A stretch of 54,673 nt of DNA from a virus: IMG/VR virus record IMGVR_UViG_3300009026_000012, positions 1 through 54,673 of that record; one strand, written 5' to 3'. Both the position numbers and the translations under genes were made by a program. The number at the start of each line of letters is the position of its first letter. Within the stretch, counting starts at the first letter, position 1. Under the pieces are notes generated by a model. It saw only the letters and a program-made list of their open reading frames with translations, had not been told where the DNA came from and made no database searches. Below, piece after piece: positions 34,359 through 37,232 of the stretch.

Positions 34359-35953
34359 TACATTGCCCCCGAAGGTTGTAGCGTTATTCTGCTACGCCCG
34401 CCTGCAGAGCCTCTGCGGCGTTTTAATTCCACGTTATCCGTGGCGCCAGAGATTACGAGCTCCGAAGTCTCTCGGCTCTCGGATATGCTGCGGGCGACGG
34501 CTTGCTCCGGAGATACCACCCCGCTGGCTTCGGATCGCTGAGACCTCCGCCGCGTCGTGTTGTCCTCCATGGGGGTGCCGCCGCCGGCCACGTAGTCGAT
34601 AGCTTTACGCACCCAATCAGGTATGAGCCCTTGGACTACGCGGGCGAGCGCTTTCGCGCCGGTCGTTATTTTGTCCCACATCTTCACAAAGAATGAGGAT
34701 ATAGGCTCCCAGTGCTTGCGCACCATGTTAGCCGCGCCTATGAGCATTCCTATAGGCCCCATCAAAAATAGCACATTACTGAGCCCGGAGTCCGCGAAGG
34801 ACATAAATGCCGCTTTTGCTTTGTCCCACCATATAATCACGGCCCCCACGGCGACGCCGAGAGCAACAAAGCCGAGAACCATAAGCCCTAGGGGGTTCAT
34901 CGCCATAACGATGTTTACCGCCGTCATTACGATTATAAACGCCTTGAGGACCGCCATAAGGCCCACAAACCACGCGATAGCCTTAGCGATGGTGGCGCCG
35001 TGTTCCTTAATGAATCTTATCGATGTTTTTAGCCCTTCGACGAAGCCGTCCACCCACTGAGTGACTAGGGCCTCGTTTGCGGAGAGCCACGCGGAGGCCG
35101 TATCCGTGGCCGTTATCATATACTCCACCAACTGCTTAACGTGCGGGGCTAGCTTCTTACCGATACCGTCGGAAACGCCTAGGATCTTATCCGTTAGCGT
35201 GTTCCATCGCCCGGTCAACGTAAGCGAGGCTTTTGTCATAGTGTCGTGGAAAGTGGCCCCCTCTTTGGTGAGCTCTTTCATAGCGGCTAGCACCATTTTG
35301 AACGACACCTCCCCACGCGAGGCCATTTCGAAAACCTCCGCTTGGGTGGTTTTGCTCATCTTAGCAATTACCGAAACCAAGGGGACGCCCGCCGTAGTAA
35401 ATTGGCGTAAGTCTTTAGACATGGCTTTCCCGTTCGCGGATATCTCGGCGAAGTTTATCGATAGGTTGCGGAAGCTCTCGGCATCGCCTGATGTAAGATC
35501 CCCTAGTAGCCGCATTGTGGGGATTACGCTGTCTTTAGTAGCGGCCCCCATGGCGAGGAGGATCTTAGCGGACGCGGCCACGTGTCTAAATGCAAAGGGG
35601 GTACTTTCCGCCTCCCTTTTCAGTTTCTCTACCATTTCGGCGGCGCCTTCCGCGCTGCCCATCAAAGGCTCGAACCCGGTGCGGGCGTTTTCAAACATGC
35701 TAAAAGCTTTTACCACCCCCACTACGGCACCCGTGAGCAAACCTAAGCCCCCTATGGCGAGGCGTTTTAAGTTTTGGCCGGTTAGGCCTATGGTGCGGGC
35801 GAACTTATTAAACCGCCTATTAAGGCGGTCTATGTGTCGAGAGGATACGCGGGAGAACTTGTTCATTCTCGCTTGCATACGCGAAAGCGGTCGGGAGATC
35901 TTATCGACCCCGATCACATCGGCGAATAGGGAGAACCTTCTGCTATTCATCAC
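34358..35953 (-). CDS. Tail tape measure protein (531 aa)
   Basis: Starts MMNSRRFSLFADVIGVDKIS. A helical N-terminal half with RMQARMNKFSRVSSRHIDRL and ARTGFEPLMGSAEGAAEMVE, the phage tail-length tape-measure pattern. Hydrophobic segments at about 305-375 (IAWFVGLMAVLKAFIIVMTA and LMVLGFVALGVAVGAVIIWW) may insert in the membrane at injection. The C-terminus is basic and flexible. At 531 residues it is short, which implies a short tail. It follows the frameshifted chaperone genes. Confidence 0.92.
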   Translation of the reverse strand: MMNSRRFSLFADVIGVDKISRPLSRMQARMNKFSRVSSRHIDRLNRRFNKFARTIGLTGQNLKRLAIGGLGLLTGAVVGVVKAFSMFENARTGFEPLMGSAEGAAEMVEKLKREAESTPFAFRHVAASAKILLAMGAATKDSVIPTMRLLGDLTSGDAESFRNLSINFAEISANGKAMSKDLRQFTTAGVPLVSVIAKMSKTTQAEVFEMASRGEVSFKMVLAAMKELTKEGATFHDTMTKASLTLTGRWNTLTDKILGVSDGIGKKLAPHVKQLVEYMITATDTASAWLSANEALVTQWVDGFVEGLKTSIRFIKEHGATIAKAIAWFVGLMAVLKAFIIVMTAVNIVMAMNPLGLMVLGFVALGVAVGAVIIWWDKAKAAFMSFADSGLSNVLFLMGPIGMLIGAANMVRKHWEPISSFFVKMWDKITTGAKALARVVQGLIPDWVRKAIDYVAGGGTPMEDNTTRRRSQRSEASGVVSPEQAVARSISESRETSELVISGATDNVELKRRRGSAGGRSRITLQPSGAM

Positions 35954-36188
35954 GGGGCCTTGTTAGTTCGCGCAACTCGGGGCGCAAATAGTCGTAGAAC
36001 ATTTGCACCTCTGCAATGGTCAAGGTCCTAGGGTCCGGGAGGTTCCGGTACATTCGGCACACCTGTACAAATTGCTCCATAAGAACATTGTACATCGAGT
36101 GCGCTTTCACAAAGTCCCCGCTGTCCTCGTCGCGCGTAAAGTCTTGAGTATCGGAGCCACTACGTACTAGGGTAGTGACTACCGGGAG
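35943..36188 (-). CDS. Tail assembly chaperone extension made by programmed -1 frameshift
   Basis: This frame has no good start of its own (only TTG at 36215, inside the upstream gene). The upstream gene carries the slippery heptamer T-TTT-TTC at 36188-36194 (minus strand) two codons before its stop. A -1 slip joins its FF codons to this frame (LPVVTTLVRSGSDTQDFTRD), giving a product of about 245 residues. It ends RELTRPRDE, overlapping the tape measure gene. This is the G/GT arrangement of lambda and the E/E' one of P2. Confidence 0.8.
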   Translation of the reverse strand, partial: LPVVTTLVRSGSDTQDFTRDEDSGDFVKAHSMYNVLMEQFVQVCRMYRNLPDPRTLTIAEVQMFYDYLRPELRELTRPRDE

Positions 36189-36673
36189 AAAAAAACGCTC
36201 GCTACCTCCACGCAAAAATTACCGTCCGCGATCTCCATATTAGCGAACGTCTTAGGCGGTAGCCCTGTGACGGCACCCGCGAAGGCTTGCATTTTTTTCA
36301 TGTTTTGGCCTTCTTTGTACTGGTCTAGCTGCATCATCACATTGAATTTTGGTTTTTTAAAAACAACCGTTTCTAAGCTCGCCATGCTGCCCGGCACGAG
36401 GTCGAACTCCAGTGTATTCTCATCCTCAAGTACGCGGAAACGCCCCCGCAGTATCTCGCGGCATACTTTTCGCTCCAGCTCGTCGAAGCCCTGCTTAGTG
36501 TCCGCGTCCATGAATTCGCGGTCCGTGTCAACGTCCCACATTCGCATGAATGCCGCGAACTCGGCCTTAGCCAGCTCCACGGCAGCGTGTTTGCGCTCTG
36601 CTTCGCTCGGTTTTTTTCGTTCTGGCTTAACGGCCTTAGTTGTCACTGTATTGTCTTGCGTATCGTTGCTCAT
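36179..36673 (-). CDS. Tail assembly chaperone, short form (164 aa)
   Basis: Starts MSNDTQDNTVTTKAVKPERK at ATG 36673, which GGGGGC precedes; an ATG four codons earlier lacks a ribosome site. A disordered basic N-terminus is followed by helices (HAAVELAKAEFAAFMRMWDV) and a region with TLEFDLVPGSMASLETVVFK. It lies between the tube and tape measure, and ends with a seven-T slippery stretch that gives the longer chaperone. It should bind the tape measure during tail assembly. Confidence 0.85.
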   Translation of the reverse strand: MSNDTQDNTVTTKAVKPERKKPSEAERKHAAVELAKAEFAAFMRMWDVDTDREFMDADTKQGFDELERKVCREILRGRFRVLEDENTLEFDLVPGSMASLETVVFKKPKFNVMMQLDQYKEGQNMKKMQAFAGAVTGLPPKTFANMEIADGNFCVEVASVFFSR

Positions 36674-36702
36674 TTGTGCCCCCATCGGACAAGTTAAAAA
36701 AA

Positions 36703-36834
36703 TGGTTGACGCGGAAGGATTCGAACCTACCTACAGCCGGTAGACCTAGGGAAGGTTGACCCGGCCAGCGGATTGGGGGCGGCGCTATGTTGGGTAAACT
36801 CGCCCCGCTTGCCTAACCACTCGGCCACGCGTCA
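36703..36834 (-). tRNA. tRNA-like element with enlarged anticodon loop and variable arm
   Basis: Minus strand, 132 nt. A perfect 7-bp acceptor (TGACGCG/CGCGTCA) with discriminator A and encoded CCA; T8 G9; a D arm GCC/GGC with loop GAGTGGTTA, like class II tRNA-Ser; a T loop TTCGAAT with a 5-bp T stem holding one T-T mismatch. The anticodon stem AGCGG/CCGCT closes 33 nt instead of 7, and 36 nt lie between it and the T stem, forming a GCCGG/CCGGC arm. A seven-T run follows CCA. The elbow and acceptor look functional, the anticodon arm does not. It may be an inserted or degenerate tRNA, or a tRNA-mimicking RNA. It lies eight bases after the tube gene. Confidence 0.7.
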
Positions 36835-36842
36835 TTGAATCG

Positions 36843-37232
36843 TTATTGCGGCTCTAGTTGTCCCGGGCCTTCTAGGTCGATAGTGGCGGAAGCGCTCGCG
36901 CTGCCTTGCACTATCTCGCCGACTATCTGCCCCGAGCCTTGGTATATCACCCCAGACCCGTAGGTTATGCCGACACTGAAAAAGTCGTTACGGTCTGCTA
37001 GTTCCTGTAGGTATTCTTGGTCGCCCTGCGCGTCGTCGATAACCACCGCAACGCCTGCGAGCCGCCACCCCTTACGGGTTTTTATTAGGCGGGCCGTCTT
37101 GCCGTCGCCATTCATGGCGACCTCGTTCTCCCAACCGCCTTTCCTTCGGTTGGCCTCGGCGTCGCCTGTTACGGCGAGCGTTCTACCCGAGAGCGTAATG
37201 CTCTCAATACTTCCACCTATCGCGGTTGACAT
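36843..37232 (-). CDS. Tail tube protein (Mu gpM type)
   Basis: A 129-aa protein starting MSTAIGGSIESITLSGRTLA. The beta-rich order AVTGDAEANRRKGGWENEVA, KTARLIKTRKGWRLAGVAVV and GSASASATIDLEGPGQLEPQ matches the tail tube family of Mu-like phages. Directly downstream of the sheath, as expected. Confidence 0.9.
   Translation of the reverse strand: MSTAIGGSIESITLSGRTLAVTGDAEANRRKGGWENEVAMNGDGKTARLIKTRKGWRLAGVAVVIDDAQGDQEYLQELADRNDFFSVGITYGSGVIYQGSGQIVGEIVQGSASASATIDLEGPGQLEPQ

Follow-up and report, generated by a model that had tools for sequence, protein, structure and literature searches.

A tRNA-like element at a phage tail tube-chaperone junction, and its likeness to an RNA fold able to hide the chaperone Shine-Dalgarno sequence

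Between the tail tube and tail assembly chaperone genes of a 54.7-kb virus record (54,673 nt, analysed at its full length and referred to as the window) lies an element with the skeleton of a class II tRNA, in which a long loop complementary to the Shine-Dalgarno (SD) sequence of the chaperone gene occupies the place of the anticodon loop. Relatives carry a family of RNA elements at the same junction, and the pseudoknot of this family covaries with the SD. Comparison with about 100 relatives suggests that the window element is the tRNA-like form of an RNA fold that is widespread, apparently undescribed and able to hide the chaperone SD. It is considered reasonably probable that the element is a tRNA-derived cis-acting RNA that gates chaperone translation through SD sequestration.

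A class II tRNA skeleton between tail genes

The minus strand of the window carries a myovirus-type structural operon in the order terminase, portal, major head protein, tail sheath, tail tube, chaperone and tape measure. The gap of 157 nt between the tube gene (36843-37232) and the chaperone open reading frame (36179-36685) contains the tRNA-like element. The chaperone probably starts at the ATG at 36673-36671, 5 nt past the GGGGG SD, because a further in-frame ATG upstream, at 36683-36685, overlaps the SD strand of the pseudoknot. The chaperone gene has TTTTTTTC near its end, at 36188-36195 (minus strand), and an open reading frame at 35943-36215 overlaps that at 36179-36685 in another frame; the two together likely mark a programmed frameshift yielding a longer tail chaperone. 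The parts of the locus, in the direction of the message, are as follows.

36843-37232, minus strand: tail tube gene (phrog_4699, E 7e-34), directly upstream of the element
36703-36834, minus strand: whole tRNA-like element, unique in the skeleton scan and identical in contig L003
36828-36834, minus strand: acceptor stem, 5' strand TGACGCG, read from the sequence and retained in the minimum-energy fold
36811-36825, minus strand: D arm GCC-GAGTGGTTA-GGC, serine-tRNA-like, with A14, G15, G18G19, A21 and a 3-bp stem
36805-36809, minus strand: anticodon-position stem P2, 5' strand AGCGG, read from the sequence
36772-36804, minus strand: 33-nt loop, made of the inner hairpin GGCG-AGTTTACCCAACATAG-CGCC and then the anti-SD; its AGTT..ATAGC.CC.CCC can be aligned to L144 and L148
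36774-36780, minus strand: anti-SD GCCCCCA (PK5), with 7 contiguous pairs to 36684-36678
36767-36771, minus strand: P2, 3' strand CCGCT; the 5-bp stem closes exactly 33 nt
36736-36765, minus strand: variable arm, stem GCCGG/CCGGC, with the motif GGGTC..GTCTACCGG inside
36714-36730, minus strand: T arm GTAGG-TTCGAAT-CCTTC, with one T.T mismatch, flush with the acceptor
36707-36713, minus strand: acceptor stem, 3' strand CGCGTCA, forming a 7-bp stem with TGACGCG
36703-36706, minus strand: discriminator A and CCA, followed by T7 (36702-36696)
36678-36684, minus strand: TGGGGGC (PK3), which contains the chaperone SD GGGGG and is complementary to GCCCCCA
36179-36673, minus strand: tail assembly chaperone gene (phrog_4648), aligned with the chaperones of relatives

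U8 follows the 5' strand of the acceptor, and the variable region spans 36 nt. A pattern scan that required the acceptor, U8, the core bases of the D arm, the T arm and CCA together finds a single site in the 54.7 kb; 150 dinucleotide shuffles of the window gave no match, and the matches of the scan over the collected loci of relatives are copies of the window element only. One such copy is carried by contig L003, which is 99.97% identical to the window over 6988 bases. A first-pass annotation of this DNA had described a class II (Ser-like) acceptor, D arm, T arm and CCA here, a 33-nt loop closed by the anticodon stem, a 36-nt variable region and an unusual position between tail genes; all of these hold on the minus strand, and relatives carry RNA elements in the same gap. 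Among the three readings it had offered, a tRNA mimic, a tRNA with an intron-like insert of 26 nt and an RNase P/Z processing signal, the mimic fits best, with tRNA core bases and ACCA retained and the anticodon loop replaced, while the intron finds no support.

The element is not a decodable tRNA. It has the acceptor, T arm and D-arm core bases of a class II serine tRNA together with CCA, but a 7-nt anticodon loop with U33 and an anticodon is absent, both directly and after intron removal; on inspection, no pairing of the two ends of the 33-nt loop that gives 7 nt has U33. Neither a group I core nor a bulge-helix-bulge was seen in it by eye. ARAGORN under default settings calls no tRNA or tmRNA, with or without introns, the Rfam tRNA model gives no match up to E 10, and Rfam 15 as a whole (4227 models) yields only chance-level matches for the window element and for those of relatives. 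A tmRNA was discarded because neither ARAGORN nor Rfam finds a covariance match or a tag, and an integration attachment site because both tRNA halves are present, unlike in attP; no integrase was found among the 20 window proteins scanned.

The serine-like D arm, long variable arm, T arm and CCA would also be expected of a phage serine tRNA gene that is damaged or interrupted by an intron and landed in the operon by chance. This origin is nevertheless distinctly improbable: no contiguous excision, of 26 nt or otherwise, leaves a loop with U33, and ARAGORN searching with introns makes no class II call. Permissive ARAGORN settings force tRNA-Arg/Ser models whose 58-nt "intron" swallows most of the variable arm, which is not credible. 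Moreover, homologous pseudoknotted elements stand at the same junction in other phages. The first-pass annotation had named relatives with an ordinary 7-nt loop as the sign of a damaged copy here, and no relative was found with a normal tRNA at this place.

A pattern search for further tRNA-like leaders returned at least 120 stretches, and 94 of the 120 listed are called tRNA by ARAGORN, mostly ordinary ones. A few odd short tRNA-like leaders are left among those listed, and the two inspected precede other genes. On the minus strand of L224, at about 10826 of the reverse complement, a very short tRNA-like leader with a 7-bp acceptor, a T arm, ACCA and one small hairpin, lacking D and anticodon arms, precedes a papain-type-protease-like gene.

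A covarying pseudoknot at the same junction in relatives

The tube protein, used as a query, matched 40 phage records (38-59% identity among the matches listed) and many viral contigs; the phages are those of Vibrio, Shewanella, Acinetobacter, Oceanospirillum, Aeromonas and Pseudoalteromonas. L003 is the only near-identical relative, and the tube-chaperone gap of the others usually holds a different, compact RNA, here called type I. It consists of a stem P1 of 7-8 bp, a stem P2, usually of 3 bp (GGG/CCC), that closes a loop of roughly 8 nt, for example CGCCCTAT, and a stem P3 of about 5 bp, which in most cases abuts P1 directly, much as a T arm stacks on its acceptor; its 3' part comprises sometimes ACCA, an A/T-rich linker, a copy of the SD (ATAGGGC) and the ATG. 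The hairpin loop is complementary to this SD copy, which gives a pseudoknot. The window element lies at the same tube-to-chaperone junction, and its acceptor stem is equivalent in position to P1.

Judged by its alignments, the type I pseudoknot is real and covaries strongly with the SD. Across 28 aligned elements, 95.9% of pair cells are standard pairs and 15 of the 22 pairs show two-sided changes, with no shuffle among 500 matching any of the measures. Pairing falls to 44-51% when partners are shifted by one column, and shifts of one to three columns destroy it. The pseudoknot helix taken alone is 99.4% paired, with two-sided change in three of its six pairs. Pairing of 48 loops with their own SD leaders averages -14.0 kcal/mol, against -10.97 +/- 0.29 for permuted partners (0 of 10000), a permutation test that overstates independence, the loops including both related and divergent sequences. 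Distinct pairing solutions include AGGGC/GCCCT, TAGGAC/GTCCTA, GGGGGT/ACCCCC, CAAGGC/GCCTTG and AAACACGG/CCGTGTTT. A covariance model built from the 28 elements (R1) finds the element at the tube-chaperone junction in loci outside the building set (best E 1e-17), and its strong matches in whole phage genomes occur one per genome and only at this junction; at the window element R1 gives no match. Rfam 15 returned no match in the loci of 12 relatives, and no description of a tail-junction pseudoknot element was found in the open-access literature. The comparison with related phages that the first-pass annotation had proposed turned up, at the same place, a covarying pseudoknot that can sequester the SD; that annotation had described the shape of the window loop correctly and overlooked the main point, the complementarity of its sequence to the chaperone SD.

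This covariation bears on two further accounts of the window element. According to one, cleavage by RNase P on the acceptor's 5' side separates the tube mRNA from the chaperone mRNA, SD pairing being incidental or secondary. The 7-bp acceptor, stacked T arm, RCCA 3' end and tRNA core are classical RNase P features, the T-arm-like hairpin of type I is likewise flush with a 7-bp stem, and RNase P cleaves pseudoknot RNAs with a 3' RCCA, as well as tRNA-like ends of plant viruses, in vitro, its targeting of such RNAs in vivo being described as an open question (PMC12710915). However, only 14 of the 50 leaders parsed have ACCA after P1, several of those 14 being close relatives, and the covarying loop-SD pairing would be left unexplained, so that RNase P processing as the main role is unlikely. 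According to the other account, the element is a transcription attenuator or a protective 3' end of the tube mRNA, as could be suggested by a strong stem followed by ACCA and T7, and by the T runs that follow P1 in many relatives too. But the T run begins 4 nt past the stem, a scan for intrinsic terminators and promoters finds none at the element, and SD pairing is again unaccounted for; this account is barely plausible.

Most type I leaders (among them L004, L032, L015 and L111) have a second SD-like copy, of the ATAGGGC type, just after the tube stop, which can pair with the same loop. The upstream copy, too, favours its own loop, though less strongly (-11.7 against -10.8 +/- 0.28; 14 of 20000), and in nested folding of L004 and L032 the loop bases pair with it. 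Two SD partners suggest a switch with two states, which could be tipped by a ribosome finishing the tube gene. In the window, no such copy follows the tube stop. The flanking SD-like repeats were also considered as a target duplication left by a mobile element, an idea that was set aside because such a duplication is indistinguishable from deletion between repeats; the upstream repeat may instead be an alternative pairing partner.

On a tree of the tube protein with 103 rows, 72 rows carry type I, 26 no element and 5 a tRNA-like or type II element, which requires at least 19 changes on a tree with few columns and weak support and with element labels assigned partly by eye. Presence and absence are cleanly separated in the close pairs L044/L048 (92.0% identical flanks), L034/L045 (84.2%) and L004/L041 (84.6%), and most sampled relatives without an element have a plain SD before the chaperone. 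In Vibrio phage 1.181.O (L013, 2911-5094), a minus-strand block including a cytosine methylase is annotated behind the tube gene, in the place of the chaperone of relatives. Behind the major capsid gene, L176 (KY622015, 11696-11742) and L179 have a hairpin GGCGCC..GGCGCC, and its loop region is able to pair with GAGGGCG, the SD of the gene that follows. A second pseudoknot behind this gene, which looked likely in SppYZU01, was rejected as a general feature, as other phages mostly have plain hairpins there.

Type II elements and the place of the window element

Elements of another build, type II, are found at the tube-chaperone junction of L056, L144, L148 and L170. They comprise a D-like hairpin, a hairpin of the GGG-AGTTATAG-CCC kind with an anti-SD directly behind it, and a variable-arm-like hairpin. 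The hairpin of L056 is GGG-AGATAATAG-CCC, and this element further includes a hairpin resembling a T arm, with TCCGAAT, and an acceptor-like stem of 9 bp; a T arm is absent from the L144 and L148 elements. In the place of P2, other pairs were identified by eye (GCAA/TTGT in L056, GTAA/TTAC in L144 and CGA/TCG in L148). The anti-SD and SD read CCGTGTTT/AAACACGG in L056, CCCTATTTA/TAAATAGGG in L144 and CCCTATT/AATAGGG in L148, and equally good pairing is reached by 0%, 2.1% and 4.8% of shuffled loops, respectively.

Alignment of the window element with those of L144 and L148 scores 39.5 and 38.5, against 19.9 and 19.8 for shuffled sequences, with 1 and 2 of 1000 shuffles as good. The similarity runs through CGAGTG, which belongs to the D arm of the window element and is common to L144, through AGTT..ATAGC and through GGGTC..GTCTACCGG..AGG. 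Among 2.9 million viral contigs, GGGTC..GTCTACCGG together with AGGTAGG occurs only in L003 and L174 (the L144 contig), both times at the tube-chaperone junction. The likeness to L056 is weak (96 of 1000 shuffles as good), and L056 is similar to L144. Sequence comparison of the window element with the type I element of L004 found nothing. The features by which type II homology was recognized, namely the D-arm loop, the AGTT..ATAGC hairpin and GGGTC..GTCTACCGG, are all present in the window element, and in the type II frame its 33-nt loop would correspond to P2 enclosing the inner hairpin and the anti-SD GCCCCCA. Types I and II may or may not share ancestry.

The anti-SD (36780-36774) and the SD strand (36684-36678) form a loop-leader duplex of -16.4 kcal/mol, and 22% of shuffled loops pair equally well with the window leader, which places this pseudoknot, taken by itself, within what composition would give. 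The sole close relative, L003, is near-identical, so the window element offers no direct covariation. The claim of a pseudoknot in the window is therefore based on homology and position, and the position of a tRNA-like element between tail genes is explained by the SD-pairing RNA that relatives carry in the same gap. The nested minimum-energy fold of the element (-54.9 kcal/mol, z -2.4) keeps the acceptor stem and not the cloverleaf, which at about -40.4 kcal/mol, without pseudoknot or tertiary terms, lies 14.5 kcal/mol higher. This fold has an acceptor and two arms, a topology much like that of type I, and pairs the GCCCCC stretch with an internal GGGGC of its own stem. The nested minimum of L144, L148 and L170 also differs, being a long hairpin.

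Possible control of chaperone translation and known systems

Under the favoured reading of SD sequestration, GCCCCCA in the replaced anticodon loop would pair with TGGGGGC, which contains the chaperone SD; the resulting pseudoknot on its tRNA-shaped scaffold would keep ribosomes from loading. With GCCCCC held instead by the internal GGGGC, as in the nested minimum, the SD would be free. Chaperone would thereby be made in low or regulated amounts beside abundant tube protein, and RNase P or some other factor that binds tRNA may be recruited by the tRNA body. From these sequences, we infer that the window element works like those of relatives and lowers chaperone translation, with competing pairings that would allow switching. 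A more speculative and, taken whole, rather doubtful picture is that of a class II tRNA turned into a control device embedded in the mRNA: its anticodon loop would have become an anti-SD, its body would be recognized by RNase P and perhaps by seryl-tRNA synthetase (SerRS) or EF-Tu, recognition and SD sequestration would jointly set the tube-to-chaperone ratio, and the compact pseudoknots of relatives would be reduced descendants or functional equivalents.

Binding of SerRS, EF-Tu or a phage protein to the tRNA-like domain could also gate chaperone translation by itself, the element then being a protein-sensing tRNA mimic. A model for such control is the thrS leader, at which threonyl-tRNA synthetase gates translation, and the class II shape with its intact elbow would suit it. 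The changed anticodon arm would not prevent SerRS binding, because SerRS recognizes the variable arm and not the anticodon. However, U1-A72 and the discriminator A are atypical for serine, and the related L144 and L148 elements are without a T arm, which makes protein sensing highly improbable.

From a single message, phages need tube protein in large excess over tail chaperone. To our knowledge, the setting of this ratio ahead of the programmed frameshift has been little studied. A widespread pseudoknot that uses the chaperone SD as one strand, and that has no counterpart in Rfam, would offer a point of control open to direct testing, and its tRNA-like form would be a natural test of RNase P action on pseudoknotted tRNA mimics in vivo.

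Among known RNAs, class II tRNAs of the serine type share with the window element the acceptor, D-arm core bases, long variable arm, T arm and CCA, but the window element differs from them in its 33-nt loop, in having no usable anticodon and in matching neither ARAGORN nor Rfam models. At the thrS operator of Escherichia coli, mRNA leader domains that imitate tRNA control translation. That operator imitates the anticodon arms of threonine tRNA, whereas the window element imitates the elbow, D and T arms and CCA, its anticodon loop being replaced. A pseudoknot in a phage mRNA leader controls translation of the downstream gene in gene 32 of T4, T2 and RB69, described in a 2010 review of T4 as perhaps the only viral example in translational autoregulation (PMC3014915). 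That pseudoknot is located 67 nt upstream, where it nucleates the binding of protein across the ribosome-binding site, whereas in the window the SD itself would be a strand of the pseudoknot, in a tRNA-like form. The translational operator of E. coli rpsO, encoding ribosomal protein S15, also contains a pseudoknot (PMC3014915), but it belongs to a cellular gene under control of its own protein and is without a tRNA-like domain. The 3' tRNA-like structures of TYMV and TMV are, like the window element, tRNA-like and pseudoknotted with a CCA end (PMC12710915). However, they form the 3' ends of plant RNA virus genomes and hold their pseudoknot inside the tRNA-like fold, whereas the window element is internal to a DNA phage message and its predicted pseudoknot reaches out to a downstream SD.
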